From Jaapia argillacea MUCL 33604 (Eukaryota > Basidiomycota > Agaricomycetes > Jaapiales > Jaapiaceae): 64,000 nt of DNA. Location of the stretch: NCBI GenBank assembly GCA_000697665.1, contig KL197771.1, positions 25,980-89,979 on the forward strand, given 5' to 3'. Positions within the stretch are counted from its first letter, which is position 1. Every line of letters starts with the position of its first letter. Below the pieces are notes generated by a model. It was not told the DNA's origin. It made no database searches and was given only the letters and a program-made list of their open reading frames with translations. Both the position numbers and the translations under genes were made by a program. Shown here piece after piece: positions 2,807 to 55,132 of this stretch.

Positions 2807-4385
2807 TCATACCAAGCCCTCCATAATCCACTCGCCCTCCATGTCAAGCTTCCCCAGAGATCCATGAGGCCTTTCAATCGTGACCAAGGTGCCACACGAG
2901 CGACACCTCACAACAAAGTCCTTCTCAAAACTAACAACACCCTTAGATTTCCAGTCTCGAATGTGGCCGCAATGGTCACACTGAATAGGCATGGGTTGCC
3001 CGTGGGGATTTAACTTGGGGTGAAACCAATAGTAGCGTATAGCTGAGAGTGGTTTGTCATCCGAGCGAGCAGAAATCACATAGATGGGGATGTGAGAGAG
3101 GGTGGCCGTTGAACCAACTATAAGCTTGTGGATGGCCTTGTCAAAAGCCTCTCCGCCAATGATAATATGATCAATGAAGGCGATCATAAAGGAATTGAGC
3201 ATGCAAGGGAAAAACCCTGCAATCCCGACTCCAATGATCCTTTCGATGCCGCGTCTGAAGCAGTCGGTGAGTCAGTGAACAGAAATCAAATGAGGGAGCA
3301 TACTGTTGAGCTTCAGAAATGAGATCGGTGCGACTGGTCCCAGCTGTCATCATTGGGCCACAGGTGAGGAGGAACCATGTCGTATCCCAAGATTTGGCAA
3401 GGGAAATCAAGTCATCTCCGATAACAAAATCAAAGAACTATATTTATCGTAAGTTAGTAGATCTCCCATCTGGTTTCAAGAATTTACGGATACGTACTTC
3501 TTTGAACGAACAATGTCCATTGGTCTCAAAGAATGGCAAACCATTCTCATCGTTTGCATGGGTGAGAATGAGGACTATAGCTTTTCGAATAGATTGCCTT
3601 ACATTTGCTTTGAGAAAAAGACCAGGCGGAGTCAACAATACACATACTTTTTTAAGTTTTTGACGACAGCTCGCATTTTCTTGATGTGGGCGGAGACGAC
3701 GGCATTTCCACCAACGAGATCAAAAACAATCTCATGGGCTACAAGCGTATCATTTGCGCCATAATAATTTCGAAGCTGGGTCAGGGCAACGTCGTATGGG
3801 GAACCACGAATAGAAAGGCCATGGAGGGCGAGAATAATGACGGCAAGAGGCTCGTTGGAGACTCGCGATCCGAGAGTAGTGACCTTTTTTGCAGAAACTT
3901 TTAGACCTTCCTTGAGGAATGGTTGGTCATCGTCGCAGTAAAGACCCTGTATATCCATATGAGCCAACTTACATCAATGTTTAGAGGCAAACTCACGACG
4001 TATGGACCTGGGCGCTTTGTGGAGTCACGTTGGTGACATGCTGGACAGAGGAAACTGAGTTTTTCAAGCTCATCTAGTGGAATACGGGTGAGTTGGGGGA
4101 TGCAACCACCACATATTGCACGGCTACACGAATCACAGTCAAAAAGTTGACCTCCATTGGAACAGAGAGCACAATACTGAAGTATACCACCATCAATATA
4201 TGTTCAAACGATCACGGAAAATCGCTCACAGTCTCTTGTACCTTTGGAGGAGGCAGAGGGGAAGTCGATTTGGACTGGCGAGTTCCAGGGCGCACAGCTG
4301 GGAGCTTTGCGGCTGATCCGAGGATACTTTTCTTCGGAGCACTCCCTCCTGTGCTCTTGCGAGGAGTTTGTTTAGTACGAGCCAT
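2807..4385 (-). CDS. Histone H3-tail mimic with PHD-like finger, predicted caspase/CHAT-type peptidase domain and zinc ribbon
   Basis: Six exons join in frame: 4385-4242, 4176-3997, 3946-3648, 3597-3498, 3437-3304 and 3254-2807, with introns of 49-65 nt, giving about 434 residues. Residues 1-14 read MARTKQTPRKSTGG, the canonical H3 tail except A7 to P; R2, T3, K4, K9 and S10 are kept, and K14 is S. A Ser/Pro/Lys-rich linker reaches residue 48. Residues 49-97 hold a CxxC finger (YCALC, CDSC, CGGC, CPACH) of PHD type. Residues ~140-300 have alternating hydrophobic strands, 'ALHGLSIRG', then a His in 'VLILTHAND' (~220) and a Cys in 'WFLLTCGPM' (~267). This His-then-Cys order at strand ends is the clan CD (caspase/CHAT) pattern. 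A zinc ribbon (CDHC, CRSC) lies near residue 390. Domain calls are mine by motif; peptidase activity is inferred. All exons are open and phases agree, so the gene looks intact. Confidence 0.75.
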
Positions 4386-4944
4386 GTCGGAATTGAGTGA
4401 CAGCTGGCGATGAAGACGACACAGACAGAATGTCAAATGCAAGTTTCATATAAACTGGTTTTTAGCCGAGCTTCCACGTGCCCCCCGATCACAGGTACAA
4501 GGATCAACATCACCAAACACGAACACAACACCGAAAACCCGCCGCCGACCTGAGGATAATGTTATCCAGAAACCCCAGTTTTTTCTGGAAACCCGGGTTA
4601 CAACTGTTTGTATATCACAGCATTTTTCAAAACGATAGTCAGGTCGTAGAAAGATACACTGACAGAGCCCGCCCTTAGCCGCTACTCAATCGGCCCCTAA
4701 AGGGCAATTGCGATAAATTCCAAGTCGCTTGAGGGCGAGAAGGCACAGACTCCTTCCCACTCCCTATTCCGAGTTGATAGGGAATACGAGTGCGAGATTG
4801 ATATGTTTTATCAGAGAAAACATATGTGCCACATCACACAAACATACGCAGCCCAAATTCAAACACCGCAACTTGGCTTGACTCTCCTTAAGGCTTAGGG
4901 GCTGGTACAACATGTAAACTCCCACACCACTCGCGAACGCCCGA
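4386..4944. other. Intergenic; carries one copy of a dispersed terminal-like motif
   Basis: This is the upstream region of the H3-mimic gene. At 4563-4605 it has a motif of the form GAAACCCCAGTTTTTTCTGG followed by AAACCCGGG. It recurs near 36105-36140 in the same direction and near 6407-6445 in the opposite direction. No gene is seen. Confidence 0.4.
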
Positions 4945-5346
4945 ACGCTTTGGACTCTGAAATCGTCATGTGGTCAACGCGTTAAGATGCGCGTCGTTGA
5001 TCTTCCGCTTCGCTGCCACGGACAGGGATTGAACAGTGCTGTTGATTGAAGTAGGAGATATGGACAACCCGATGCGTGCAAGAACGTCAATGACCTTCTC
5101 TGGTGTATTTGCCGCATGGACAAACAATCCAAACACTGCCGGGACGGGGTTGCATCGGCTATTCGAGCTCACCAGCCACATGCCACAATTTGCGACCTTA
5201 TTCTGGTGGTTGATCTGAGGGGTTTCGATGGGAGTAACCAAGGGAAGTGACCTTAAGCTTACGACGGTGAGCAAGTCCCAACTACTCCCATGTGCCGTAA
5301 TTGCCTGACTGTCAGATTCTTCGTCCTCCGGTAGACTCCTTCTCAC
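4945..5346 (-). pseudogene. DUF6589-type protein fragment
   Basis: The minus-strand reading contains 'CNPVPAVFGLFVHAANTPEK' and 'VIDVLARIGLSISPTSINST' followed by 'VQSLSVAAKRKINDAHLNAL'. This resembles the middle of the large DUF6589 proteins expanded in Agaricomycetes, in which a 'YDNFD' block normally follows. Here the frame ends at a stop (4966-4968), and a shifted frame just after it reads HDDF, suggesting a frameshift at the point where that block should begin. Only about 125 of the roughly 1000 residues usual for the family remain. The function of DUF6589 is unknown, though copies often sit near transposons. The family call rests on recalled motif similarity. Confidence 0.5.
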
Positions 5347-5649
5347 CGGCGCCGTCTCAACAAACCCATCGTCATTATTTCACCCCCTCTCTTCCGGCTC
5401 CCTCCCTCTCTTTCCTCCGAAGCTAACCTCTTATCGCCAAGAAAACAGCATCGAGGAGCTCCCGGATCCCAGGTGCAAGGGTCCGGGTCTTCGTTGCCAT
5501 CTCTCCGATATCGAAGCCCTCCAGCTGTTCCGCCGTGGTGTGGCTTGCGTTGAAATGTCAATCACTCTCGCCCTCGTATTCCCTCTCAACTCGGAAGAAG
5601 GAGTGGGAAGGAGTCTGGGACCTCCCTAACTTTTCTCAGCTTTCGTTAA

Positions 5650-6395
5650 CTTGGCGGTAGTGCTGTCCGAAGGTCCGGTTACATACGGTTATGGGAACAA
5701 TTACTACGATTAGATACAACTATCATAGAGGCACTGAGATAATAAGCCATAACCGTAACTGCTGCGAGGTGGGAGGGCACGGATACGATTACGAACTATT
5801 ACAGAGGTGAGCATAACCGCATGTAAGCTCAGGCTATGCCATGAGTGAATTGGCTGAACTGGGCCGTCTCGATCTCCGCAGGTGGCGCGTACCAACCTAC
5901 CGACAAGTTTGATTGGCTCCCGAAGGGATATCGGATGGAGAACACACCTACCACACGCCAAATTCCGGCCACTGGGACCACTTTTCCATTCGTGTTGATG
6001 CTTTCATGGCAGCCCCCACAGCAATGGGAGAAGACCCAAGCATCTCGAAATTTATCCCTCTGTTCAACTTGTCGAAAACCACTTTGACTGATTGATGACC
6101 TCATACTCGAGACCGACATGCTCCAGCCGCTAATGAAGCCAACTTCCTCATCCTTTCTCTCATCACGCGCAACATACTCTGCATTCCTGGTACTTGGAGT
6201 GAGTTGGACTTCCTTGGGGGGTCCGTGCACACTTGATTTCGGGTACCTACAGTTATGATACGGTTACGATACAATTATAATACATAGCTCCTTCGGTTAT
6301 GGTTATATTAGACCTTTCTCATGTCCGTATTATTACGATTACAATACCATACGACGAAATTTTTATTATAACCGTATTACGCCAGCACTACTTGG
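5650..6395. repeat. AT-rich repeat with imperfect inverted ends (MITE-like)
   Basis: Both ends carry runs of the type 'tacggttat' and 'gattacgat' in opposite orientation. The left end has 'cttggcggtagtgctg' (about 5651) and the right end has 'cagcactacttggcgg' (about 6385), a partly inverted pair. The centre (5845-6230) is less AT-rich and has overlapping short frames without recognisable domains. Classification as a MITE is inference; I could not define a target-site duplication. Confidence 0.4.
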
Positions 6396-7035
6396 CGGTT
6401 TCTCGTCTAGCCCGGGTTTCCAGTAGAAACATGGGTTTCTCAATAGCATTATCCACCAATCTGCAATCGAGCCAACTCTGCTCACTACCTCGGTGAAGAC
6501 CAAATTGGTCATCGGTCTACCACCGACCTTCTCGTCGTCCACCCGGCAACCACATTTCGGACAAGTATAGTCTGGATGTGGTTCACTCCCCAAGTGGACT
6601 GCCAGATGGCACCTTCAAGGCATTTGTCACTCCCGGGAATCATTTGAAGGGTGCTGTCAGGGGTGAATATTGGTCCGAATCTGATCAGGGATCAAAACGT
6701 AGTCCTAGGCGACGAACTGAAGATGGAGAGAGAGAGACCACAGCAATGCCGTAATATATACCAGTCCATCTTTGGAGTTCAATTTGGCCGTGCCATCATG
6801 GGCCAAGCCGCAAGCATAGAGAGCATTCCTCAAAATCATCCAAGTATCCCAGTACGTATTGTACAACATGTGCAAATAGATTTTTCAACACGGGGGTCGT
6901 GGAATGTGGAAGGAAAACCGATGAGAAGGCAATGAGTCGGATCCCATGTCGAGACCGAGGAAGTATGTCATAGATCGTATAATAGATGGACCGTGCAAAG
7001 CTGATGAAACTAAGTACTGGAAACGCGAAACACAT
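6396..7035 (-). pseudogene. Decayed copy of the RING gene at 34 kb, RING core deleted
   Basis: Positions 6463-6712 match 34117-34370 and positions 6715-7000 match about 34980-35230, in the same orientation. The first block encodes the C-terminal zinc region ('EPHPDYTCPKCGCRV', 'MTNLVFTEVVSRVGSI'); the second is the promoter and 5' part. The roughly 600 bases between them in the intact copy, which encode the coiled coil and the RING cysteines, are absent. The frame now runs into the dispersed terminal-like motif at 6407-6445, giving a spurious tail 'RNPCFYWKPGL'. This is a non-functional relic of a segmental duplication. Confidence 0.65.
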
Positions 7036-11009: not shown

Positions 11010-12880
11010 AGATGTATGTAGATCGCCATTCAAGGATGTCAGGCATGAGCGAGCGCTGATTGAAAATTTGATGCATCGTGGAGGGACGTGTGCCTGTCTA
11101 GGACGTCGACCTTAAGCGCGGGCTGAATTTTAAAAGAAATCCGACACCGGCAGAGAGATGCCGTTCGACTTCCTTGTACGTCAGGCTCGGACATGCAAAT
11201 TAAGTTCGCTGGGATGCGTGTAGATCGCCGTCCTTGGACGTCAGGCTTCCGCGAGCACGAACTAAAAGTTTGACCCCTCGTGGAGAGATGCGCTCTCCTT
11301 CCTGTGAACACCGCTACACAAAGTATGAGTAAGTACTATTGTCACCACACTTGTGAATCGCACGTGACGGATGATCCATTGACTTGCAGCTCGCTCCATT
11401 CGTTGGACACCCCCCGTAGAAATACATAGTAATGTCTTCACATTATCATTGTCGTGAAGTCCAATTATTACAAAGGGTGTGGTTGGGGAATGGGTCTAAA
11501 AGTGAGGTGGCGTAAGTGACTAGACCTCCCGGATCCAATGGATCCCATTATCCCATCACCACGATGTTTCGGGGATCAGAAATACAGCCCACAACGATGA
11601 CCCATGGAATTTCTCGACGTCGCACGACTGGATGGACAAGAAGATTGAAACCCTCTACCAAATCCGTGTCATGGGTGTGACTTGTCCCCTGCTTGAATCA
11701 CGAATGGTCACACGCTGCGAAATGGTCGAGAATCTAGATGTCGCACATGACACCATTTGCCTGGTCGTCGCATCGGTCGATGAAGTTCGGGGGAAAAGCG
11801 AGACTTACGAAGAGGCCTGAGTGGGTCGACGTAGCTGTCAATGCCAGAGATTAAACAGAGGGCAGAAAGAAAATATACCTCGCGGTAACTCAACCCTGAG
11901 CGAAGAAACGACAAATAAGGAAGGTTTGAAATGAGTCCTCGCATTTCCCAGGAGCCAGACTTCACCTTCTTGACACCCACTCACCGTGCGCCCGACACGG
12001 GACTCAGTGTAAGCCCACCTGGGACGCGTGGAGGAAGGCGATATCCCTCAGTACCCAAGTGTCACTCAACACCGGCTCACCGTGCTTCTGACACGGGACT
12101 CGGTGTACGCCCACCTGGGACGCTTTGAGGACCGCGATGTCCATCAATACCCAGGTATCACTTTCTCAACACCTGCTCACTGTGCATCTGACACAGGACT
12201 CGGTGTATGTCCATCTGGGACACGCTGAGGAGGGTGATGTCACTCGAATAATCGGGATCTATGCCCAACCACCCACTATGAGCATAAAGGTGATTTAGCA
12301 ACCAGATAGAACGAGCTTGGAGTAAGTGCGGATAATGTAGCATGCGGTGAGAACCAAGACAAACATTCATTTGTCAGATGAAAATAGCGACTCATGGGCT
12401 ATCTATCAGGGAGATTTGTATAATATTAGCGACGCGTAACCCAGAAAACGGTTGGCAAGCGAGAAAAGGACTGAGAACGCACCTGGAAGGTCTGAAAACG
12501 CGAAGACTGAACGTCGACAGCCTCCGGACGGAGTGGGGACATGGCTGATGGCGAGTAGGCTTGTAACCGAGCCTGAACGAAGCAGAAAGCAAGGCGGGGG
12601 AGGTGGCATAGAGATGCGACATGGGTTGAGGGGCTGCCGAGAGTTGCACTCAAGGGAGCTGGAAAATATGCAAAGAGGAGAAAGCCAACAAACGCTTCAA
12701 ACGCCGTGAGAATTAGAGTGGATGAAACGAGCCTAAGCGAACTTGATCATCCCGCCATCTCAACATTCTTTTGCTGATGACGTCACAGTCCAGGACTCAT
12801 GATCAGTGGCGCATCTCATCTACCCCGCACACAACCTCTGAGGAGTTCAACTCCCAACAGGTCTTTGCTGCCCTCACCGC
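11010..12880 (+). repeat. Interspersed repeat R, diverged copy
   Basis: This aligns with 41806-43850. Shared blocks include 'agcgctgattgaaaatttga' (11056 and 41852), 'ctacacaaagtatgagt' (11313 and 42098) and a stretch from 12390 to 12730 that differs from 43316-43650 at only a few percent of sites. Similarity fades after about 12760, and the end corresponding to 43917-44278 is missing. The copy is older or more rearranged than the copies at 1-362 and 41806-44278. Short frames inside recur in both copies because the DNA is duplicated; they are not evidence of genes. Confidence 0.75.
11975..12235 (+). repeat. Minisatellite inside R, three units of about 100 bp
   Basis: Units begin near 11982, 12079 and 12178. 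Each has the core 'gacacgggactcggtgtacg' followed by 'cccacctgggacgc' and a 'tacccaggtatcac' spacer. The other full R copy has four units. Confidence 0.7.
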
Positions 12881-25022: not shown

Positions 25023-28000
25023 ATGAAACTTGAAGGCCCAACCGATGGCTTCTCAGCCTGAGCAGTCAAAAACCTATGCCGTTTGAAGGAAGGTCCTGAA
25101 GTCCATCAAGTTCCGGAATCTATAGTCAAGTGGCTTCGAAGTCTACAATAGGAAATTGAACTCTAACACATAGACTTCGCGCGAAATTCAACTTGAGCGG
25201 AGCATCAACGGTCAGCGCCTTCCTACGCCCGAGCTGCTACTACAGCCACAGTATGGAGGTACGATTTCGTCATACGTTTGAGGCATTTAATGAGGTTCTT
25301 ACAACTTCCGCGCCGACGTGTCTCCGCATCCCAACACTCAAGCGCTACGCTCAGATTTATACTTGCACCTCCTTGAAATCTCGGATCAAAAAGACCTACA
25401 GAATCACTAAAGTGGATTCGTGCCTCAGATGTGAGAGCAAATCCAAGCTCCAGGACGATGCTTGTCGATTCAAGGGTGAGTACGTTGTATTATAGAGCGA
25501 TCTTGCCTGAAAGTTGGTTCCACCAGACTTTCGCACTTTGTTGATTGAGGGCTCCGAGATAGTTGGAGTCGAATTTAATGAACAAAAACGTTCAGTCGAA
25601 GCACAATATCCTTCGATGTTTAATCGGAAACACGATAGACAACTTCTGGTTCAGAAACAAGTAGGTTCTCAGCTGTGATACTTGATACTCCAGGTTTGAC
25701 TTTATTAGATACGTCTGGCTCGATATCTTCTCCCCATATTGAAGAAAGAACATGCGCATGGGCTGCACCGCCTGGTCATCCGACGGAATAGGGAGCTTAA
25801 ATTTCGAGTGTCATGTGGTGAGTCCCATGCCAGGTATTCTCAACAGATGCTGACAGTGTCCAGATCGATGCGCTACGACCATCTTCTCAAGCGGCTGGAT
25901 GTGCAAAATTTGTGGTTTTGAGATCTGTCCGGACTGCTTTCTTGTGGGTGAATAATTCGCTATCTTCCGTCCAATTTTCTGACTAGCCACAAGTCTCGTA
26001 AACATGGCCACGGTTGTGGTGATGACCAGACGTTCTTGCCAGTCACTCGTTTCCACCAAAACGAACTCTGGGATATCATTACACGCATGGAGGTGGTTGT
26101 GCAAGAGAATGAGAACACTTTCGTGTCCCTCACAAGATATGAGCCGGCAAGTTTTCATCCAGACGTAACGACCGAAAGGAACTGCGCATTACAGACCCCT
26201 TTATTCTCTATCGAGGACCTATGCTTGCAGAATTTTCAGGATTTGTGGGCCTCTGGTACACCTCTCATCGTAACGGGGTTAGATCGCCAATTCCAACTCC
26301 CCTGGTCCCCACAATATTTTATTGACCACTTTGGCTCACAAGTATGTGAGATTGTGGATTGTGGGACGGATGAAACACAACGATCTACCGTTAAGGAATT
26401 TTTCCTTGGATTTTCGAAGGACCCTGACTCCGTTGTTGATTGTATGAAATTGAAGGTACTCCACAAACTCTCGGAGCCAACTCTGTCTGATACCTCCCAG
26501 GATTGGCCTCCTTCTGCCACATTCCAGACAACGTTTCCGTCTCTCCACGAGGACTTCATTCGCGCGGTCCCTTTCGCTGATTATACCCGTCCCGATGGAT
26601 GCCATAATCTGGCCGCGCATTTCCCGCTCAACGCTCTTCGTTCGGATCTAGGTATTATTTTTAGTTATTCTGGAGATCTCGCAATTCAGACGTTGTATAG
26701 GTCCGAAAATGTATAATGCCTACGCTGATAAGACGCGACAGGGCACCACCGTGTTGCACCTAGATGCGGCCGATGCGATCAATATTCTGCTCTACGCTAC
26801 TCCATTTGCGAACGGGCTGCCAGGTGGGGCGTTATGGCATATTTTTGCGGCAAGAGATACCCCAGCCCTTAGATGTTATTTGAGAGAAAGTACTGGGCAC
26901 GAAGACGTGGGGGATCCGATCCATAGTCAGAGTCTCTATCTGACTTTGGATATGCTTGAGGAGCTGTACAATCGACATCACATCCGCCCTTACACAATTC
27001 ATCAGAGAGTGGGGGATACAATATTTATCCCAGCTGGATGTGCTCATCAGGTGCGTCCGTTGGATCCCGGCTCATTTGATCAGATACTAAACTGTCGGCC
27101 GAGCAGGTGAGCAACGAGACACATTGCGTCAAAATTGCATGTGATTTCGTGAGCACCGAGAATATCGAAGTTTGCCAACGCCTCACCAACGAATTCAGTG
27201 CCGAGAACGTGGTCAGCGAAACCCCTTGGAAGGACGATATCCTGCAATTAAACCTTGTGCTCTACATGCTTGGATTTCTGTGTGCAACCTTCTCGATGAG
27301 TTGCCAATTTATGAAGACCGGAGTCCAATACCATCTCAGGCTGCTCATGATTCCCCCATAGCCTCCGACATTACACGATTGCCTGACTCCTCCCCTTCTA
27401 TATGCCCCATTGATACGGATCAAACTGAGACACCACCAAATGAATCTATAGAGACTGTTTTGGGAGTCGCTACTAGTAGTGAGGTTCGTTGCTGATTGCC
27501 TGTCGATACCCCGTGTTGATTTTGAGTAGGATCCGGCTGATCAGGAACGCAAGGCGTCTGGATCAGACATGGACATTAGCGATGGCGAAGACGATCCTCG
27601 TCACTTCCAGGCGGTCCAACCGGTAAGTGGACAATATCCCTATCTCAGAAATGCTCGATTCATCTGCTACTAGCCACACCTATTGCCCGATGGGAGGTCC
27701 ACGGTGCTTCCCGAAAGCGTACATCAGCCAGTGGCATCGCATAGAGGGAGGACTAAACGCAGAAATCGAGCAAGGCAAACTTTGCCTTTCCAGAATCCAG
27801 TTGCTGAATCGGGTCGCTCATTTACCTGCCCGCTCTGCCCTTCGCTGAAGCCATTCTATCATGATGGTTTACTCGGTCATCTGAAGTACGTTTATCTTTT
27901 CCAAAGAAGGTCCCCTACTCATGGTATTCGACTTCAGACATAAACACGGTCTGACCTTGGACTCAATTCAGATAGATTATCTTAGGTCTTGTCTCCCTGG

Positions 28001-36181: not shown

Positions 36182-36635
36182 TATGACGGACCGTATCGGA
36201 CAAAATTATTAGTTCGTAAGGCATCCAAATTTTATTGAGCTGGCACCAGCACTGTTTTTAGCAAATCCTAGGTAGCTCAAACTGTTGCAAAACAACTCTG
36301 GTCGATGAGGTTTGTCTGAGACTGGTTACACAAGGGCTCGCAGGGGTTTCCTAGCTTTGTCTTAAACCAGTGCGGCAGTTGGAACCAACTTAAGAAGGGC
36401 TCCCTCAGGAAAACGAAGCTGAATAGAACTGACTCCAATTGAGTGGCCAGTTAAACCAAGCTGGATAGCGCTGCATGGTCATAGGCCACAGCAGGCCTTC
36501 CACCAAGGTTAATTATCCCACGTCGAGTTGAGTCGATGGAATACAATTCAGAATGATTTGAAGCAAAGAAAATCGATTCAGAGCTGCTCAGAGGGCAAAA
36601 CATGCCCATTTTGTCTGATAGTTTTGTCCGTCATA
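36182..36635 (+). mobile_element. MITE with 'tatgacggac' ends, TA-flanked, 454 bp
   Basis: The element starts 'tatgacggaccgtatcggac' and ends 'gttttgtccgtcata', an inverted pair with TA at each end as expected for Tc1/mariner-derived MITEs. An inverted relative lies at 58636-59081. Shared inner blocks are 'aggtagctcaaactgttgca', 'aacaactctggtcgatgagg' and 'cgagttgagtcgatggaat'. It has no coding capacity. Confidence 0.65.
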
Positions 36636-37041
36636 GAAAGCTGACGAAAGTCAGGGAGGGTTGTTGATCCTCGAGTCCAGGGATTTCGGGCGGCGTCAAG
36701 CCCGAGGGTGCCTTGGTTCTAGTTAGCGAAGATTGATGCCGCATAGCTTGGTCCTTGGGCCATACCCGTAATATCCTTACAGGTATTCTTATAATATGTT
36801 ATTTCGACACAGATAAGTGGTATATTTCGAGACATAGTTTCAATTCTGCCGTGTGGCCGGGGCACTTAGCAATACTCGAGGTATAATTAAACTATCTAGT
36901 CAGCCGTGCTCCGCGCCACAGGCATTCAAATTTGGATGGCCAACAATATGTCCGTGGGGTTTACCCTCACCCGTCTGCAGTGTGAGCGTCAAAACCCCGC
37001 ATCCTACTATATATCCAGCGTGCCACCAAAGTGATCCCACC

Positions 37042-37201
37042 ATGAGTTTGTAGGCTGGGACAATAGTTTGCACGAAAAAGGTGACTTACAGTTTCTAGCA
37101 AGCCCCTCGCCCTTGTTATTCTCGCCCTCGCTGGGCTTCACTCCGTTGGAGCTAAGAATCAGACTCTAGATATCCCCACCTCCCCAAAGAGGGAGGCCTA
37201 G
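37042..37201 (+). CDS. Candidate short secreted peptide
   Basis: An ATG at 37042, an 8-base first exon, a 49-nt intron (GTAGGC to TCTAG, 37050-37098) and a second exon to a TAG at 37199-37201 give 36 residues. These begin MSFKPLALVILALAGLHSVG, a textbook signal peptide, then AKNQTLDIPTSPKREA. The 'KR-EA' near the end resembles a Kex2/Ste13 processing site. A 'tatatat' lies about 32 bases before the ATG. The frame may be only the first part of a longer decayed gene. This is a model built by eye with no family match. Confidence 0.35.
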
Positions 37202-37605
37202 TCTTTGTACAATTTACCTTCTTCTTTTGGCAAGACGTTCCCATTCCGATCGGTTCTGCTGCTGTCTCGTCGAGCATTCGGTCCAGTGAATTATGCAGTG
37301 TATTCGCTGAGCTGTAAATCGTAACCCTTGATGCAATCTGAAAGTTTCGCAGGTTTGATTTGAGATCAGTTTCGTGCATCCAATAGTCTGAACGTTTGAT
37401 ACAAATGAGTCAGAGACCAGTGCCGCTACTATCATCGTAGTACGTTGTTGTGTCTACTGACGACTCGAGTGTACCTCAAGCATATTGTCCACAGTGTTCA
37501 AAGGGAGATTCAGGTGTAGGTTTTTAACCATCATGCTCCGTCATGATTATCACGATCTAAATGTAAGTGTATATATCAACTCCTGTGGGGCGAGAATGAA
37601 ATGGT

Positions 37606-37890
37606 GTGGTAGATATCAAATATTGCAGGGTCCGGATTCGAAAGATCCCCTCTGCTAAATGCGAATGCGATACTACTGAGGAGACGGTCCATCACTTTTT
37701 ATTCGATTGCCCGTTGTACCGACGGGAGCGGTGGAAAATGGAGAGAAGGATAGGACGGGATGCGAAGGACTTGAAATACCTACTGGGAACGAAAGAAGGC
37801 ATGGTGGAGACACTTTTATTTGTGGGAGACACTGGGAGATTGCACAGACAATTCGGTGATGTTCACCTTTCTATTCCAATGGATGATTAA
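37606..37890 (+). pseudogene. LINE (non-LTR retrotransposon) ORF2, C-terminal end
   Basis: The frame contains 'CECDTTEETVHHFLFDCPLY' followed by 'RRERWKMERRIGRDAKDLKY' and 'LLFVGDTGRL'. This is the zinc-knuckle-like tail found after the reverse transcriptase/RNase H part of fungal LINE ORF2 proteins. Upstream, no reverse transcriptase motif is found, so only the 3' end of a 5'-truncated insertion is present, as is usual for LINEs. An A-rich run near 38394 could mark its tail but is 500 bases away. Confidence 0.65.
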
Positions 37891-41805: not shown

Positions 41806-44278
41806 AAATGAATATAGATCGCCTTCCTAGGAAGTCGGGCGTGAGAGAGCGCTGATTGAAAATTTGATGCTCCGGAGAGGTGCGCCTTCCTAGGAAGTCA
41901 CCCTCAAGCGAGCGCTGATTAAAAAATTTCCGACTCCCGGCTTCATTGGACGTCAGGCTCGGAGACGCAATCTAATTTCCTTGAGGTTTGTGTATATCGC
42001 TGGGACGTCATGCTTCCGCGAGCACGGACTAAAAATTGACCCCTCGTGGAGAGATGAGGTTCTCTTTCCTGGAGACGACGTGCCACACTCAAGACCGCTA
42101 CACAAAGTATGAGTGAGTACTATTGTGGCCCCACTTGTGAACCATTAACTTGCAGCTCGTTCCATTGGTTGGGCACCCCCTATATAAATTCACGGTTATG
42201 CCAACATAGTGTACAAACATTGTCGTGAAGTTTAATTATGAAAAGAGGGCGTGGTTGTGGAATGGGAAGTCAAAAGGCCTTTTGGTGTCAGTGACTGGAC
42301 CTCCCAGATTCTACGTATCCCATCACCTCATTCTATCGGGAGTGGATACAGCTCAAAAAGATGCCCGAAAAAATTTCTCCGACGTCCTACGACTGGAAGG
42401 TATGGATGGACGAGACGTCTGGCAAATCTGCGTCACGAATCGTGACTTGTCGCCTGCTTGAGTCACGGATGGTCACACGTGGTCCAGATGCCGCACACGA
42501 CACCATTTGCCTGTTGTCGCCTCGGCCGATGCTCACTTATCGAAGAAAAACAGGATTTACGAAGAAGCCTGAGTGGGTCGACGTAGTTGTCAATGCCAGA
42601 GATTAAAAAAAGGGGAGAAAGCAAATATACCTTCTGGCACACAAATCAGCCCTGAGTCAAGAAACAACAAATAAGCAAGTCTTTGAGAGGCGTCCTCGCA
42701 TTTCCCAGAAGCCAGACTTCACCTTCTTGACACCTACTCACCGTGCATCCGACACGGGACTCGGTGTACGCCCACCTGGGACGCTCTGAGGGTTGTGATG
42801 TCCCTAAATACCCAAGTATCACTCTCTCAACACTTGCTCACCGTGCATCTGACACGGGACTCGGTGTACGCCCACCCGGGATGCTCTGAGGGTTGTGATG
42901 TCCATCAATACCCAGGTATCGCTTTCTCAACACCTGCTCACTGTGCATCTGACACAGGACTCGGTGTATGTCCATCTGGGACACGCTGAGGAGGGTGATG
43001 TCACTCGAATAATCGGAATCTGTGCCCAACCACCCACTATGAGCATAGAGGTGATTTAGCAACCAGATGACACGATATGGGAGCACCCAGGTATTACTTT
43101 CTCAACACCTGTTCACTGTGCATCTGACACAGGACTCGGTGTACGCCCATCTGAGACATGCTGAGAAGGGTGATATCACTCGAATAATCGGGATCTGTGC
43201 CCAACCACCCACTATGTGATTTAGCAACCAGATAGAACGACCTTGGAGTAAGTGCGGATCATGCAGCCTGCGGTGAGAACCAAGACAAATATTCATTTGT
43301 CAGTTGAAAATAACGACTCATGGGCTATCTATCGGGGAGATTTGTATAATATTAGCGACGCGTAACCCAGAAAATGGTTGGAAAGCGAGAAAAGGGCTGA
43401 GAACGCACCTGGAAAGTCTGAAAACGCGAAGACTGAACGTCGACAGCCCCCGGACGCAGTGGGGACATGGCTGATGGCGAGTAGGCTTGTAACCGAGCCT
43501 GAACGAAGCAGAAAGCAAGGCGGGGGAGGTGGCATAGAGATGCGACATGGGTTGAGGGGCTGCCGAGAGTTGCACTCAAGGGAGCTGGAAAATATGCAAA
43601 GAGGAGAAAGCCAACAAACGCTTCAAACGCCGTGAGAATTAGAGTGGATAAAACGAGCCTAAGCGAACTTGTTCATCCCGCCATCTCGACATTCGTGCAG
43701 CTGGTGGTGACGTCACGGTCCAGACCCTGGTTCATTTCGGTCGTCCGTCCGAGTCTGTGCTTGTCGAGCCCCTCCTTCAACCCGTACCATCTGTCATCTC
43801 CCTGGAGTGCAACTCCTGGCAGATCTGCTGCGTCTCTCTTGGCTCGATACCAAATCCGGGCACATTCCACTATGAGGAGTAAACTCACTCAGGCTGAGCG
43901 AGAAAACAACTTCAGATCCAGCGAGTAACTCATTCAGAAGAAGTGGGTTTGGATGAAGGCCATGTGAGAAAGACACCTCCGACCGTGGGTGAGTCACTCG
44001 CTGAAACGACGAGTGAGTAACTCATTCCTTTCTAACCATGTCCCTCACTTCCTTGCCAGTACGGTACTCATTCGATGTGAGGGTCCAAGTCGCGTGAGGT
44101 AACGTAGCGAGGGTCTTTTGCTGTGAGGTCGTCGTAACCAGGGTCTTCATATCTTTACAATCATACACTTGCACCTGTACACGGACCCCACTTGCTTTGA
44201 TACTCAGCCGATAATGCCATCTCACGCATCGAGTCATCCCAACCTGAGCTAGTTGGGATCCTCAAATGAATGAATTAC
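41806..44278 (+). repeat. Interspersed repeat R, most complete copy (about 2.47 kb)
   Basis: The left limit is set by where similarity to 11010 begins ('tagatcgcc' box), the right limit by the end of identity with 1-362. Near the left end the box 'ccttcctaggaagtc' followed by 'agcgctgatt' is repeated. A 'tatataaattcac' at about 42181 looks like a promoter. A four-unit minisatellite lies at 42735-43160. No transposase, integrase or reverse transcriptase is encoded, and the ends lack clear inverted repeats. R is mobile or recently duplicated because its last 362 bases are identical at two loci with unrelated flanks. Confidence 0.75.
42735..43160 (+). repeat. Minisatellite inside R, four units
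   Basis: Units with 'gacacgggactcggtgtacg' or close variants start near 42740, 42840, 42940 and 43112. Spacing is about 100 bases except before the last, which is preceded by a partial duplication of the 'gtgatttagcaaccagat' segment. Confidence 0.7.
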
Positions 44279-44490: not shown

Positions 44491-47400
44491 CTAGAAGACC
44501 GTCACGAAAGCATGTGAATCCATGTAATTATCTACATAAAAATCTTCGGCTTCTTCGAGGACGCTACTCTGTGTCCACTCTCTAGAAACTGTAGGTCCAA
44601 ACTTTGGGAACAGAAGGATACTTCGACGAATGTTGGCGACCGGTATGATGGCCGCGACACGTACCCCGTCCTTGTATGTTCGAGAGACCTTGTACATCAA
44701 GTGGTTCGGCTCCGGTGACTTGAAGGTGGAAAACCACTCGACGTACGCGAGGTATCCAACATCTTCGTGTCCATTGGGAAAGAGTGATTGGAGGTCAGTG
44801 GGTCGGAGACGAAACACAACCCGGACTTGAGCGACACGACGGCCTAGCTCAAAGAGGTCAGAACAAGCTCCAAGTCTGGGAAGGATCGCAGATGACTGAC
44901 CTTCGATACCAATTGTGGAGGATGTCTCATCACCAAGATCAACAAGCACAGTATCAAATCGCGCGGGAATGGGGCGACCCCGCTTATCCTTTCGGACTCG
45001 ATGAATATGAACAACATCCATGATGTCAGGGGCATTGGCGAAATCGTGAGGGTCTGGGTTCCATAGCTTGATTTTGTGGTAGATGGGTATAGACCGAAAC
45101 GGAATGAAGATGTTTGCGGCGGCGCGCTTGGTTTGAGCTGCGGAATACGATGGATTTCGACGACGAGCAACGAACATTGAGAGGGCATTGCGAAAGTCCA
45201 CTGCCCCGTAGTCATTCGCAAGATCGTCGAAGTTAACAGCGGGGCATGACGGGTTGCGTGTCATCTGGATGTGTTGGTGCTCGACCTTGTTGAGAGTTTG
45301 GGCGAGAACGGAAGGGCACCCAGCCTTTCTCCATTTGACGAAACTCTCGTGGCGGTGGATTTTCTCTTTCCGTTCTAGCCACAAGGTCATTTGAGGGTAC
45401 TCTTCCTTCCTATTCGTCGACACATACGCATCCTTGGCAAAATCGATGTGGAGACGTTCGGTGGCTTCAGTATTGTAGTTGTCGGTCGTCCCAAAAAGCT
45501 CAATGGAAGTCCGGTAATGCTGCGCATTGTGCAGTTTCGGGAGGTTGAAGTGGGCTCGAATACCAAGATCGATGAAAACATCCTTATTGAGATGGAATTC
45601 TGACAGGGATTCGTCGAGCCGGTCTAAAGTACGCGCATTGTGACTTGGGTACTGAGCGATATAGAGATAATCGAGCAGGGACCGAACAGCCCTGACGAGA
45701 CGGGTGGTGGACTGGTTATCGGGAAGGCGAAGGTCGACAATAAGGCCAAGTAGAATCCGGCACATGTCCTTGTGTTCCTTTCCGGAAACACGGGAAAGTG
45801 TTGTAATCCCTTTGGAAAAGTGTCGAATATTGTGGTTGGGAGGCATTCGTCGACATCGAGCGTCGATTTCGCTCGCCCCGAAGGCAGAAGTCAGCCACGT
45901 GAGTAGATGCTTGATTAAACCTTGGTAGAGCTGATGGAGGATGTCGGGAGTGATGGACTGAAACACATCGGCGTAAGGGAGATCTTCCCAGAAAGGATGA
46001 AAGACCGGTTCAATCCCGGCGTCGGCACATGCACGAGCAAACACCATAGGATCTTCGTCGTCGATCTTGTCCAACGCCTCCAACACCTCAACAAAATCCC
46101 GGGCCTCATAAAGCACACCATCACCCAGCGCTTCATGCGGGACATGGCAAGTTGGACACTCTCCATTCTTGGTACATGTTACAAGTAGCTGTTCGGGATA
46201 GTCGCCGACATACACTGCGAAGATGGGGTGGCAACGCCGAGTAACGCCGTCGCCGCTGGTCATGTGTACACCTGTGATGCCAGCCTCCTTCAAAGGTGCC
46301 AAAACTCGACGCATGCACGCATGAAAGAGGTTTGCTAGTGCGCGACGACGAGCTGCCTTATTTGTCATGTGCTCCAATCGTGTTGTGGGGAGGTATGCGA
46401 GTAGGATTTGTCCTCGCCGAGAGGGCTTGCGTCGCACTTCCTTGGGTAGATTTCCGATGGTTATGTAGACAGGATAAGCAGTCTTGTTCCGGAAGAGGGT
46501 GAGCTGGGTCTTGTCGGAGGAAATGATGATAGGCAAAATCGTAGCACCAGGAGATTCCTTCTCAATTGCCACCTGGAATAGAGATAAGTTGAGTCCGGGT
46601 ACTCAATAGCCTGGAATTTGGATTGTCGACAAACCTGTGTGCTCCACCACCACTTTCCGGTATGCATATCATGGTAGAGCCTATCTGTCTTGTCTTCGTC
46701 AAGATAATGCCGTTCAGGGGAGAATACAAGAACAGGCGAAAAGTCAGGCTCGCCCCACAGTGCTTTAACACATTCGATCACGTCTCGGAAGTAAACATCA
46801 AAGGTTTCACCCGCGATGACTATCTCCTCGCGTTTGAAATGTGGACGACCTGGAAGCTGTTCGTCGACAATCTTGTTCAGTTCCCGAGAGTTCTTGTATG
46901 ATAATCCAAGAAGCTGAGAGAGCTAAACAACCACCGATCAACGAACGCACAACAATGAGGCCAGATAATGACTTACCCCTTCGATACCCAGCAACTCCGT
47001 AAAGGCAGTGGAGCCTGCGCCACGAAGCTTCCCCCATTTTGCCACGTCCCAGTCGGTCTTTGAGGTAAAAGGTGCATAGATATTATTCTGGTCTCCTCCA
47101 CCAAGCGATCGTTGATACTTGAGATAAGTTGAGCTAGCAGCATCTTTCTCGACAACAGCTCCCGCACGCCCTCCAAAACGGACAACGAATGGTCGCACTG
47201 CAGGGCGCTGCTCGGATTGGCGGCGTTCCTCACGATTCGGGGGTGGTTCATGGTCTTCTTCCATAGGCGCAGGTGGCGAATGTGATGGCAGTGAATGCGA
47301 AGGTGGTGAATGTGAATGCGAAGGTGGTGAATGTGAATGCGAAGGTGGTGAATGTGAATGCGAAGGTGGTGAATGTGAATGCGAAGGTGGTGGCTCCCAG

Positions 47401-52936: not shown

Positions 52937-55132
52937 ATGGCTTCCGCACTCCTCCAGGCCTTGAGCTCTTGCCCGGAAATACTGGATACCTTGTCGCTTC
53001 ACAAAATCTATCTATTTCTCAGTCTCGTTCAACAGCTACGCCCCCGCATTGGTCGAGGGATCGCACCCCACGTTCCTGAACCTCCTTTGATTCTTGAAGA
53101 CGACGTGGCAGGATTTTTGGGGAGTGTACTGGGTGTTAATCAGACTATTGTCTCGAGATGTTGGGAGACCTTTCGTGTGTATGCCTGGGATGCAACGGGC
53201 TGGGGGGCTGATGGCCTCTTGGGGAACCCAGCTAATCTGGAGCTCTTTCTCCACCATGGTCTTCTCTATAACATTGGTGTGTCCATGCTTTTGTCCGACC
53301 TTTGAATCCTCAGCCTTACCGCCCTTCTCAGGCTTTCATGACCTTGAACCCCCAACTCGAATATGCATGGACCCGCGCTGCATACGTCCAGATGGCGCCC
53401 AGCCCGAGCTTGTGGAACGACGTTGCCACCCTGTCACCCTCTTTACGTGTGACGTTGGTGCCGTTCCAGTTTGGTCAAACTCTTTATACTGTCGTGGTGA
53501 GTCGTTATTGCTTGGGCATGGCTGTGGGTGTTCTAAACGTGATTACCTCAGGCTGTAGGACACGTTATCACCACAATTATTATGTCCACGACAGTGCAAC
53601 CCAACGCACATACTACCCTGGCATCCCTTCCATCCTACAGGGATCAAAACGTTTCTACTTTGAGGCATTGCTTTGCGAACGATTTCGCAACATGATGGTT
53701 TGCTCCTGGTGAGTCTATACATTGGATGTCATTGGGTTTTGACCCCCACTCACAACCATTGTGATAGGACTTCGGCAACAAATTGTGCAAGGATCTACAA
53801 CCTTGAGACCCCAAATGCAAGCTCACGACCTCAAATTCGGTGGCCTATCAGCCTGAAGATGGACTGCGAGAATGTTTGGGACGCGTTCTTCATGTACAGC
53901 CTGCTGAAGGATCACCACGAGCAAGGAGCTGGTCTCACTCTCGAACACAAGGTCTCGTCTCATGCCGCTCGTCTTTTTCCTGCGCTTGAGACTCGGAACA
54001 AGGCGATGGTGGGACCGGGCCAGCCTCGATGGAGCCATGCTTGTGACCTCTGTTGTGAGATGCGAACCACGCCCGATGGTGAGACATGTAAGTTATCTGT
54101 CAGATTTGTCTCTCTTATTTGGTTCTTATCCTTGACTCGGTGTAGGGGCCCTTCGTGCTGTTGTGACAGATGGCGTAACCCTCGGTCATCCATGCTGTCG
54201 TGTTCATGATTGCAAGACACCCCTTGAAAGCCAGCGGGATACATATTGTCCCCATCATGATGCTTTAAAGAAAAAGTGCGCTGTTGATACATGTGTCAAC
54301 GAAATTGAAGCCGGCTTTCAGACATGCCCCCTCCCCGATCATCGCACACTTGAGGATAATCATCGAGAACAAAACCGCGCGATGTTTCAACTGAAGCGAC
54401 GGCTCGAGAACCTGAAAATCTCCCAGACGGAAGATTCTCTTCGAACAGAGGATGGAGGCACGGTTGCAGGAGACGAGCTCGATGATGTTCAGTGTGAGGG
54501 CAAGCCGGAAGAGGGTAACCGGAAGTATCGAGCCCAATTTGGGCGGAGACGAACACATAACGAAGAGCTATGTGTTGCAACATGTGGAGTTATCCTTGGT
54601 CGCGCGACATTTTTCGGGTCGGAGGGTCCAAATGGTGTTCGAGTAAGTTCGAACCCATCTTCCATGTGATAGGATGCTCATTTCTTTGCAGGTCTTTCAT
54701 CGAACTTTGTTCCCCACTCCACAATCATTGCCTGGGTGCATATTTCACGACAATAATTGCAATGTGAAGAAGGTTCTTGAATCTTTACGCGATGATTATT
54801 TCTGGAGGTGCGCTCTACCAGTGGATGTCTTTCATATGAAGACCAAGCACAAGGAATCTGATCAATACTGCAATTCCCGGTGTAATCCTGCAAACTGGCC
54901 AAGCCTGATGACTGTCGATGGGAAGTGGCGTTTCAACTCGTCTGCTGCAGAGATCACGAACGCATGGTTTGGAGGATTCCAGTCGATTGTACGAGAGATG
55001 CGAGTTGAGAGATATAACTTTTTTCTTGACGAAATGATCAAGATACGCAATGAATTGATTGTGGAGGATCTCGAACAGAAGGGTGCTCGTCCATATAATA
55101 TTCCTCGTGCTGTATTACTTGGATCTACATAG
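52937..55132 (+). CDS. CxC5/CxC6 cysteine-cluster protein with KDZ-transposase-like C-terminal domain
   Basis: Exons start at 52937 (MASALLQALSSCPEILDTLS) and run through introns at about 53278-53314, 53495-53552, 53709-53768, 54089-54145 and 54642-54691 to the TAG at 55130. The first half carries a CxC5-like cluster ('RICMDPRC', 'LFTCDVGAVPV', 'LYCRGCRTRYHHNYYVH'). The middle has the CxC6-like cluster ('HPCCRVHDCKTPLESQRDTY', 'CPHHDALKKKCAVDTC', 'FQTCPLPDH') and a helical linker. The last exon has 'IFHDNNCNVKKVLESL', 'DVFHMKTKHKESDQYCNSRC' and 'NSSAAEITNAWFGGFQS', whose Asp and Glu fit the C-terminal acidic residues of the KDZ RNase H fold. The first intron (37 nt) is unusually short. The frame is otherwise open, so it looks intact. 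It is probably part of a DNA transposon or its cargo. Confidence 0.75.

Follow-up and report, generated by a model that had tools for sequence, protein, structure and literature searches.

Why would a fungal protein begin with the N-terminal tail of histone H3 and carry, a short way down the same chain, a PHD-like finger? This question is raised by a gene found in the 64,000-nucleotide stretch of Jaapia argillacea DNA analysed here (the window), whose product runs from an H3-like tail through a basic linker of ~40 residues to a PHD-like finger, an uncharacterised domain and a zinc ribbon. The initial annotation read it as an H3-tail mimic joined to a PHD-like finger and to a caspase/CHAT-type peptidase. 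By sequence, the mimic and the finger stand, whereas the peptidase finds no family or profile support. We tentatively favour, as the best explanation, a chromatin-associated protein that may be regulated by intramolecular (or subunit-to-subunit) histone mimicry.

The gene occupies positions 4385-2807 of the minus strand (Table 1). Splicing of the six predicted exons, as had been called for when the gene was first annotated, gives a single open frame of 438 aa with zero stops, and its five introns (53, 50, 50, 60 and 49 nt) all follow the GT-AG rule. In the list of open reading frames the ATG at 4385 is the first of its own frame after a stop; an out-of-frame ATG lies 64 bases 5' of it. The codon score of the spliced CDS is 33.8 in frame versus -4.9 or lower in the five other frames, the score having been trained on five other ORFs of the window and the gap being widened by stops in the other frames. 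Taken exon by exon, the predicted frame has the top score in exons 2, 3, 5 and 6 and comes second in exon 4 (-0.3, behind 2.5 on the other strand), and exon 1 is without codon signal, its predicted frame (-4.0) ranking fourth of six. Support for exon 1 consists of the H3-like peptide, the start codon and the in-frame splice. Intron 1 has another in-frame donor as well, 12 nt farther upstream; its use would shorten exon 1 by its last four residues, VQET, E51 and T52 among them, and would leave the join with exon 2 in frame. Judged from the sequence, the H3-like start, the PHD-like finger and the exon join between them are real anatomy of the gene.

Table 1. Positions in the window of the exons of the H3-mimic gene, of its zinc ribbon and of a decayed second copy.
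Feature	Position	Strand	Content	Evidence
Exon 1	4230..4385	(-)	aa 1-52: H3-like N-terminus MARTKQTPRKSTGGSAPKKS (residues 1-20 = 4385-4326) and basic linker	spliced model, tblastn, shuffles, ORF list
Exon 2	3997..4176	(-)	aa 53-112: PHD-like finger, C54 C57 C66 C69 C74 C77 C96 C99	spliced model, Pfam, PDB phmmer
Exon 3	3648..3946	(-)	aa 113-211: uncharacterised domain, part one; coding signal highest of the six exons	splicing, codon score
Exon 4	3498..3597	(-)	hydrophobic run with H225 (codon 3560-3558)	splicing, motif search
Exon 5	3304..3437	(-)	hydrophobic run with C271 (codon 3362-3360)	splicing, motif search
Exon 6 and stop	2807..3254	(-)	remainder of uncharacterised domain, then zinc ribbon	splicing, codon score
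Four-Cys zinc ribbon CDHC...CRSC	2894..2980	(-)	within exon 6	Pfam ribbons below cut-off, sequence
Decayed partial second copy (end of exon 2 and start of exon 3)	37015..37153	(+)	stop and frame shift	tblastn, DNA and protein alignment

The protein begins MARTKQTPRKSTGG and is identical to H3 at 12 of its first 13 and at 16 of its first 20 residues; by sequence, this near-exact H3 peptide in a non-histone protein is a histone mimic. The alignment of MARTKQTPRKSTGGSAPKKS with H3 scores 82, the best of 5000 shuffles of the 20 residues reaching 44. When the window was searched with the H3 tail by tblastn, the start of the gene was matched at E 6.8e-9 and the next place at E 0.14, in agreement with the annotation of an H3-like start encoded by its own first exon and joined in frame to exon 2. 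A chance likeness of this start to H3 was rejected on the tblastn value and on the absence of any shuffle above 44 among the 5000. Beyond residue 20 the likeness to H3 becomes marginal, and 286 of 5000 shuffles equal it. The possibility that the gene is itself a histone was likewise rejected: Pfam gave no histone family at E up to 10, and no histone fold follows the tail.

Alanine at position 2 should permit the removal of Met1, by which the N-terminus would become ARTKQTPRKSTGG. Residues A1-T6 of the mimic are then identical to those of H3, and A7 is changed to Pro and K14 to Ser. The first residues of H3 are the part held by PHD fingers, as described in PMC5663869, PMC3471955 and PMC3214078, and for binding by the Cbx3/HP1 chromodomain an Ala at the -2 position is reported as strictly required (PMC3325965). 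Pro7 removes this Ala, so that the pattern of changes, seen here in one sequence, suits reading by a PHD finger or another K4-type module more than reading of HP1 type; the changes should spare the former and spoil the latter.

The finger itself was sought among solved structures. With exon 2 and the last five residues of exon 1 as query, phmmer found PHF21A/BHC80 nearest in the PDB at 1.3e-6 (3e-5 with the whole protein), which bears out the description of exon 2 as a PHD-like finger, although Pfam remains below its cut-off. In all, 42 distinct PDB sequences match this query at E up to 1, and the top twelve belong to PHF21A (two), AIRE (two), TRIM66, CHD4 (two), SP140 and TIF1alpha (four). 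TAF3, which is a K4me3 reader, was matched only at E 0.22. We call the finger PHD-like because the Pfam PHD family (PF00628, cut-off 24) gives 20 bits (7e-4) with exon 2 alone and 12 bits (0.23) with the whole protein. Its eight cysteines align in register with those of PHF21A and AIRE, Cys74 standing as the fifth zinc ligand where a canonical PHD finger has His. In the PDB alignments A72 occupies what we take to be the place of the K4me3-cage Trp, and the cage Trp is absent. The role of this Trp in K4me3 readers is described in PMC3214078.

Other residues of the binding surface can be compared in a numbering register, set in this analysis, that relates the finger to BAZ2B, UHRF1 and BHC80. 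The Arg2-site Asp is kept, since D67 aligns with BAZ2B D1950 and UHRF1 D334; loss of D1950 costs BAZ2B 100-fold in H3 binding according to PMC5663869. E51 aligns with BHC80 E488, reported as a contact of K4 (PMC3214078), and Q62 lies in a GQL motif as in BHC80. Thr52, at -2 from the first zinc Cys, replaces the usual K4-site Asp (AIRE D297, BHC80 D489), and Ser70 replaces the second Arg2 Asp (BAZ2B D1953, UHRF1 D337), a Ser being found there in BHC80 too. UHRF1 is described as reading H3 without a K4-site Asp before its first zinc Cys (PMC3214078), and the H3K4me0 subfamily as given in PMC3471955 comprises BHC80 (= PHF21A), AIRE-PHD1, CHD4 and TRIM24 (= TIF1alpha). By alignment, the nearest solved relatives of the finger are mostly readers of unmethylated H3K4, and its residues are mixed for such a class. 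Kinship with this class makes the suggested latch, in which the tail occupies the finger, chemically sensible, though Thr stands in place of the K4-site Asp.

We would thus picture the mechanism as follows. Freed of Met1, the tail may enter, on its linker, an H3K4me0-type PHD-like finger, most simply that of the same chain (in cis) or of a second copy of the protein. Once docked it would compete with nucleosomal H3 and lower the finger's hold on it, and the docking could gate the C-terminal domain. Methylation of the mimic K4 by H3K4-methylating enzymes would be expected to release the tail. The preservation of A1-T6, the part that a PHD finger holds, beside the changes at A7 and K14 counts for self-docking, as do A72, D67 and E51 at reader positions, and the identity of the nearest solved fingers (PHF21A, AIRE, TRIM66, CHD4, SP140 and TIF1alpha) counts for docking of the H3K4me0 type. 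Thr52, Ser70 and the sub-cut-off PHD score count against it, and so do the alternative donor of intron 1, with which E51 and T52 would be lost, and a decayed copy of the gene in which no H3-like exon is recognisable.

A tail of this kind could also work in trans. It might draw or occupy other H3 readers or modifiers, for which an LSD1-type demethylase (as with SNAIL1), COMPASS/WDR5 or the PHD fingers of other proteins are candidates, while its own finger holds nucleosomal H3, and the protein would then bridge chromatin and an enzyme. Mimics acting in trans are known from G9a, SNAIL1 and influenza NS1 (PMC5663869), and a JmjC domain is encoded in the same window (26652-27107). We nonetheless regard this explanation as somewhat unlikely, for a candidate reader of the same peptide lies ~40 residues off in the same protein, and Pro7 should block readers of HP1 type. 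The JmjC gene (25952-27110, plus strand; Pfam 7e-8 for the domain) is by eye of KDM3 type and lies ~22 kb from the H3-mimic gene.

The decayed second copy reads PACHQ, KKVT and then VSSKPLALVILALAGL, with the order of the gene kept across two frames. It was recovered by tblastn as two pieces, each at E 0.11. Its protein alignment scores 56, a value that none of 1000 shuffles and none of 606 tiles of the window attains, and at the DNA level it gives 35.6 bits versus 33.7 for the best of 100 shuffles. No H3-like exon is recognisable near it by tblastn, the nearest candidate, RTKLLVRKAS (36197-36226), being at chance level (E 24). To judge by these alignments, the gene had a relative in this window; they say nothing firm about the tail. 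Adjoining the copy, at 37600-37890 on the plus strand, an open frame with a CxC...H...C pattern resembles by eye the end of a non-LTR retrotransposon polyprotein.

Repeats and transposon-like sequences were recorded elsewhere in the window. The region 4554-6454, which starts ~170 bases 5' of the ATG of the gene, may be a non-autonomous transposable element of ~1.9 kb: its ends, 4554-4600 and 6408-6454, are inverted repeats of each other over 47 nt (83%), and a second such pair of 64 nt (88%; 4739-4802 and 5561-5624) is nested between them. A Plavaka-type KDZ transposase (44491-46602, minus strand; Pfam 1.6e-91) and a CxC6 cysteine cluster linked with KDZ transposases (54136-54669, plus strand; Pfam 2.1e-26) are probably pieces of two KDZ elements. 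Elements of this kind point to a fungus, most likely an Agaricomycete. Two tandem arrays 30 kb apart (11966-12241 and 42730-43002) share nearly the same unit of 96-100 nt and constitute a dispersed minisatellite.

Another explanation would give the H3-like exon no role, as an N-terminus captured or arisen by chance, or would see in the gene a family member in decay. The decayed partial copy and the possible inverted-repeat element just 5' of the start codon would agree with this, as would the fading of the H3 likeness past residue 20 and the missing codon signal of exon 1. The six exons nevertheless form one open frame whose codon score stands far above that of the other frames, and the H3-like peptide starts exactly at the first ATG of the frame, as a working mimic would need, so that we consider the explanation improbable.

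For the C-terminal domain, a His-then-Cys pattern on hydrophobic strands had been noted. H225 and C271 do each follow a hydrophobic run, 46 residues apart, but shuffling the region 20000 times reproduces this pattern in 573 cases. It is found in none of the 31 ORFs in the window that are at least 150 aa long, none of 34 CHAT domains and one of nine C14 domains; given these counts it is neither a family mark nor very rare. A rough motif search of the 34 CHAT and 9 C14 domains found a His-Cys pair in 32 and 8 of them, spaced by 41-58 residues in 20 and 6, respectively. The motif context is HA and TC here and usually HG and AC in clan CD. No match above the cut-off was obtained for the domain in Pfam (used alone, it met only Ribosomal_L22, at 0.058) or for the protein in NCBIfam (two weak, unrelated matches), and PADLOC gave zero matches for the protein.

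Comparison of profiles was no more favourable. With a CHAT profile built from 34 domains the query obtains 0.3 bits, and 9 of 500 shuffles do better; with a C14 profile built from nine domains it obtains -2.6 bits, and 116 of the 502 other entries outscore it. An animal-caspase profile of eight segments, five of them provisional, gives the query 1.1 bits, a score matched by 124 of 2000 shuffles and exceeded by 3 of 72 ORFs of the window. The probabilities given by hhalign are 0.4% for CHAT and 0.1% for C14, with 21 and 72 of 100 shuffles as high. As controls, six of the nine C14 domains reach 3.5 to 8.9 bits with the CHAT profile. In hhalign against that profile the C14 domains score from 12.7 to 36.5, six of nine exceeding 21.7, the highest value among 100 shuffles of the query; the query itself scores 15.6, with two of the nine below it. 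Against the C14 profile the best shuffle reaches 19.5 and is beaten by eight of nine CHAT domains sampled from the 34, whereas the query, at 12.2, falls below. Animal caspases score no higher than -0.4 bits against the CHAT profile and 2.2 bits against the C14 profile, and the caspase profile gives at most 1.6 bits for bacterial CHAT and 2.2 bits for C14 domains. These tests have moderate power to relate CHAT and C14 to each other and little power to reach animal caspases. That the domain belongs to CHAT or C14 is consequently less likely, as most of the controls beat the shuffles and the query does not; a distant third branch of clan CD could be missed by profiles nearly blind to animal caspases.

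One hint of a distant caspase relation comes from phmmer, in which caspase-3 matched the His region at E 1.4. This alignment, non-significant and fifth of five PDB matches, brings H225 into line with the His of caspase-3 to within a gap of one residue; it is lost with a shorter query and ranks after four matches, to beta-lactamases and a phage tail protein, which are also non-significant. Single-sequence folds of fragments had a mean pLDDT of 38.4 (exon 4-intron 4-exon 5) and 40.9 (exon 3), values too low to inform on the fold. With nothing in its favour from Pfam, NCBIfam, PADLOC, the CHAT, C14 and caspase profiles or hhalign, the caspase/CHAT-type peptidase of the initial annotation is unsupported. 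It is quite improbable that the domain works as a clan CD peptidase of caspase/CHAT-like type, with H225 and C271 as its active pair, and that the tail serves it as pro-segment, pseudo-substrate or H3-tail address: the His-Cys spacing and the caspase-3 alignment would suit such an enzyme, and the empty family searches, the shuffle-like scores and the HA and TC contexts argue against it. The zinc ribbon announced after this domain is there, with four cysteines and a Zn_ribbon_RPAB4 match in Pfam of 1.6e-4 when the C-terminal 77 residues are used alone (0.2, below the cut-off, with the whole protein).

We tentatively keep to regulation by mimicry within one protein or between its copies. A fuller scheme, in which a near-perfect H3 N-terminus docked in its own H3K4me0-type finger would silence a clan CD peptidase, and unmethylated nucleosomal H3 or methylation of the mimic K4 would switch this Agaricomycete enzyme on at chromatin, seems highly improbable.

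Relatives were sought in three collections. A degenerate DNA pattern for the H3-like start matched 0 places in the viral_contigs collection and seven in genome_contigs, on contigs that lie in bacterial genome bins (L062-L068). Five of the seven open into the H3 core in the same frame, L063 reaches the core after an intron, and in L067 the contig end stops the H3 tail after 36 residues. These H3 sequences are of eukaryotic type and probably represent eukaryotic contamination of the collection. No relative of the protein itself was confirmed in viral_contigs or genome_contigs, and tblastn of the plasmid collection gave a single match, at E 8. The predicted proteomes of Agaricomycetes may contain other unnamed proteins with an H3 start and a Cys-rich finger; if so, the gene would be a member of an undescribed family.

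The combination of H3-tail mimic, PHD-like finger and predicted peptidase had been put forward as not known from any described system, and no description of it was found in the open literature, among the matches listed. As far as we have seen, a near-exact free H3 N-terminus and a K4me0-type finger in one chain are apparently new; histone mimicry and intramolecular mimicry are already known. If the tail binds the adjoining finger, one gene would supply both reader and ligand, with the free N-terminus that PHD fingers hold, as a natural counterpart of the PHD-H3 fusions built for structures. It would also offer a ready test of whether the threshold at which such a protein binds chromatin is set by self-mimicry, and by modifying the copied K4 a histone methyltransferase could bring a protein that is not a histone under its control.

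Comparison with known systems places the protein among several partial likenesses. With the caspase, CHAT and C14 domains of clan CD it has in common that a His and, at a comparable distance, a Cys follow hydrophobic runs, but no significant sequence relation to them was found here. The finger shares GQL, CD(S/T)CSR and a Glu at the E488 position with that of PHF21A/BHC80; where the latter has D489 and the zinc-ligand His, the fungal finger has Thr and Cys, and its second half is longer. G9a, SNAIL1 and influenza NS1, listed as histone mimics in PMC5663869, resemble the fungal protein in that an H3-like peptide is carried by a non-histone protein. To our knowledge, none of these mimics has a PHD-like reader next to it in its own chain. 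An artificial parallel is the engineered fusion of a PHD finger with the H3 tail from which the BRPF2 PHD-H3 structure was solved (PMC3192050). The known analogue is BAZ2B, whose linker is reported to resemble H3, to compete for its own PHD finger and to lower the affinity for H3 almost ten-fold (PMC5663869); by analogy it is a precedent for the competition mechanism. The PHD-linker-bromodomain part of BAZ2B, like the fungal protein, has an H3-like basic segment in the same chain as a PHD-type finger, competition with H3 being shown for BAZ2B, whose finger recognises unmodified H3, and proposed here. As described in that source, however, the BAZ2B mimic is an internal lysine-rich linker placed after the finger, with Lys for Arg2 and no free N-terminus, whereas the fungal mimic precedes its finger and forms, at the true N-terminus of the protein, a near-exact copy of the tail.
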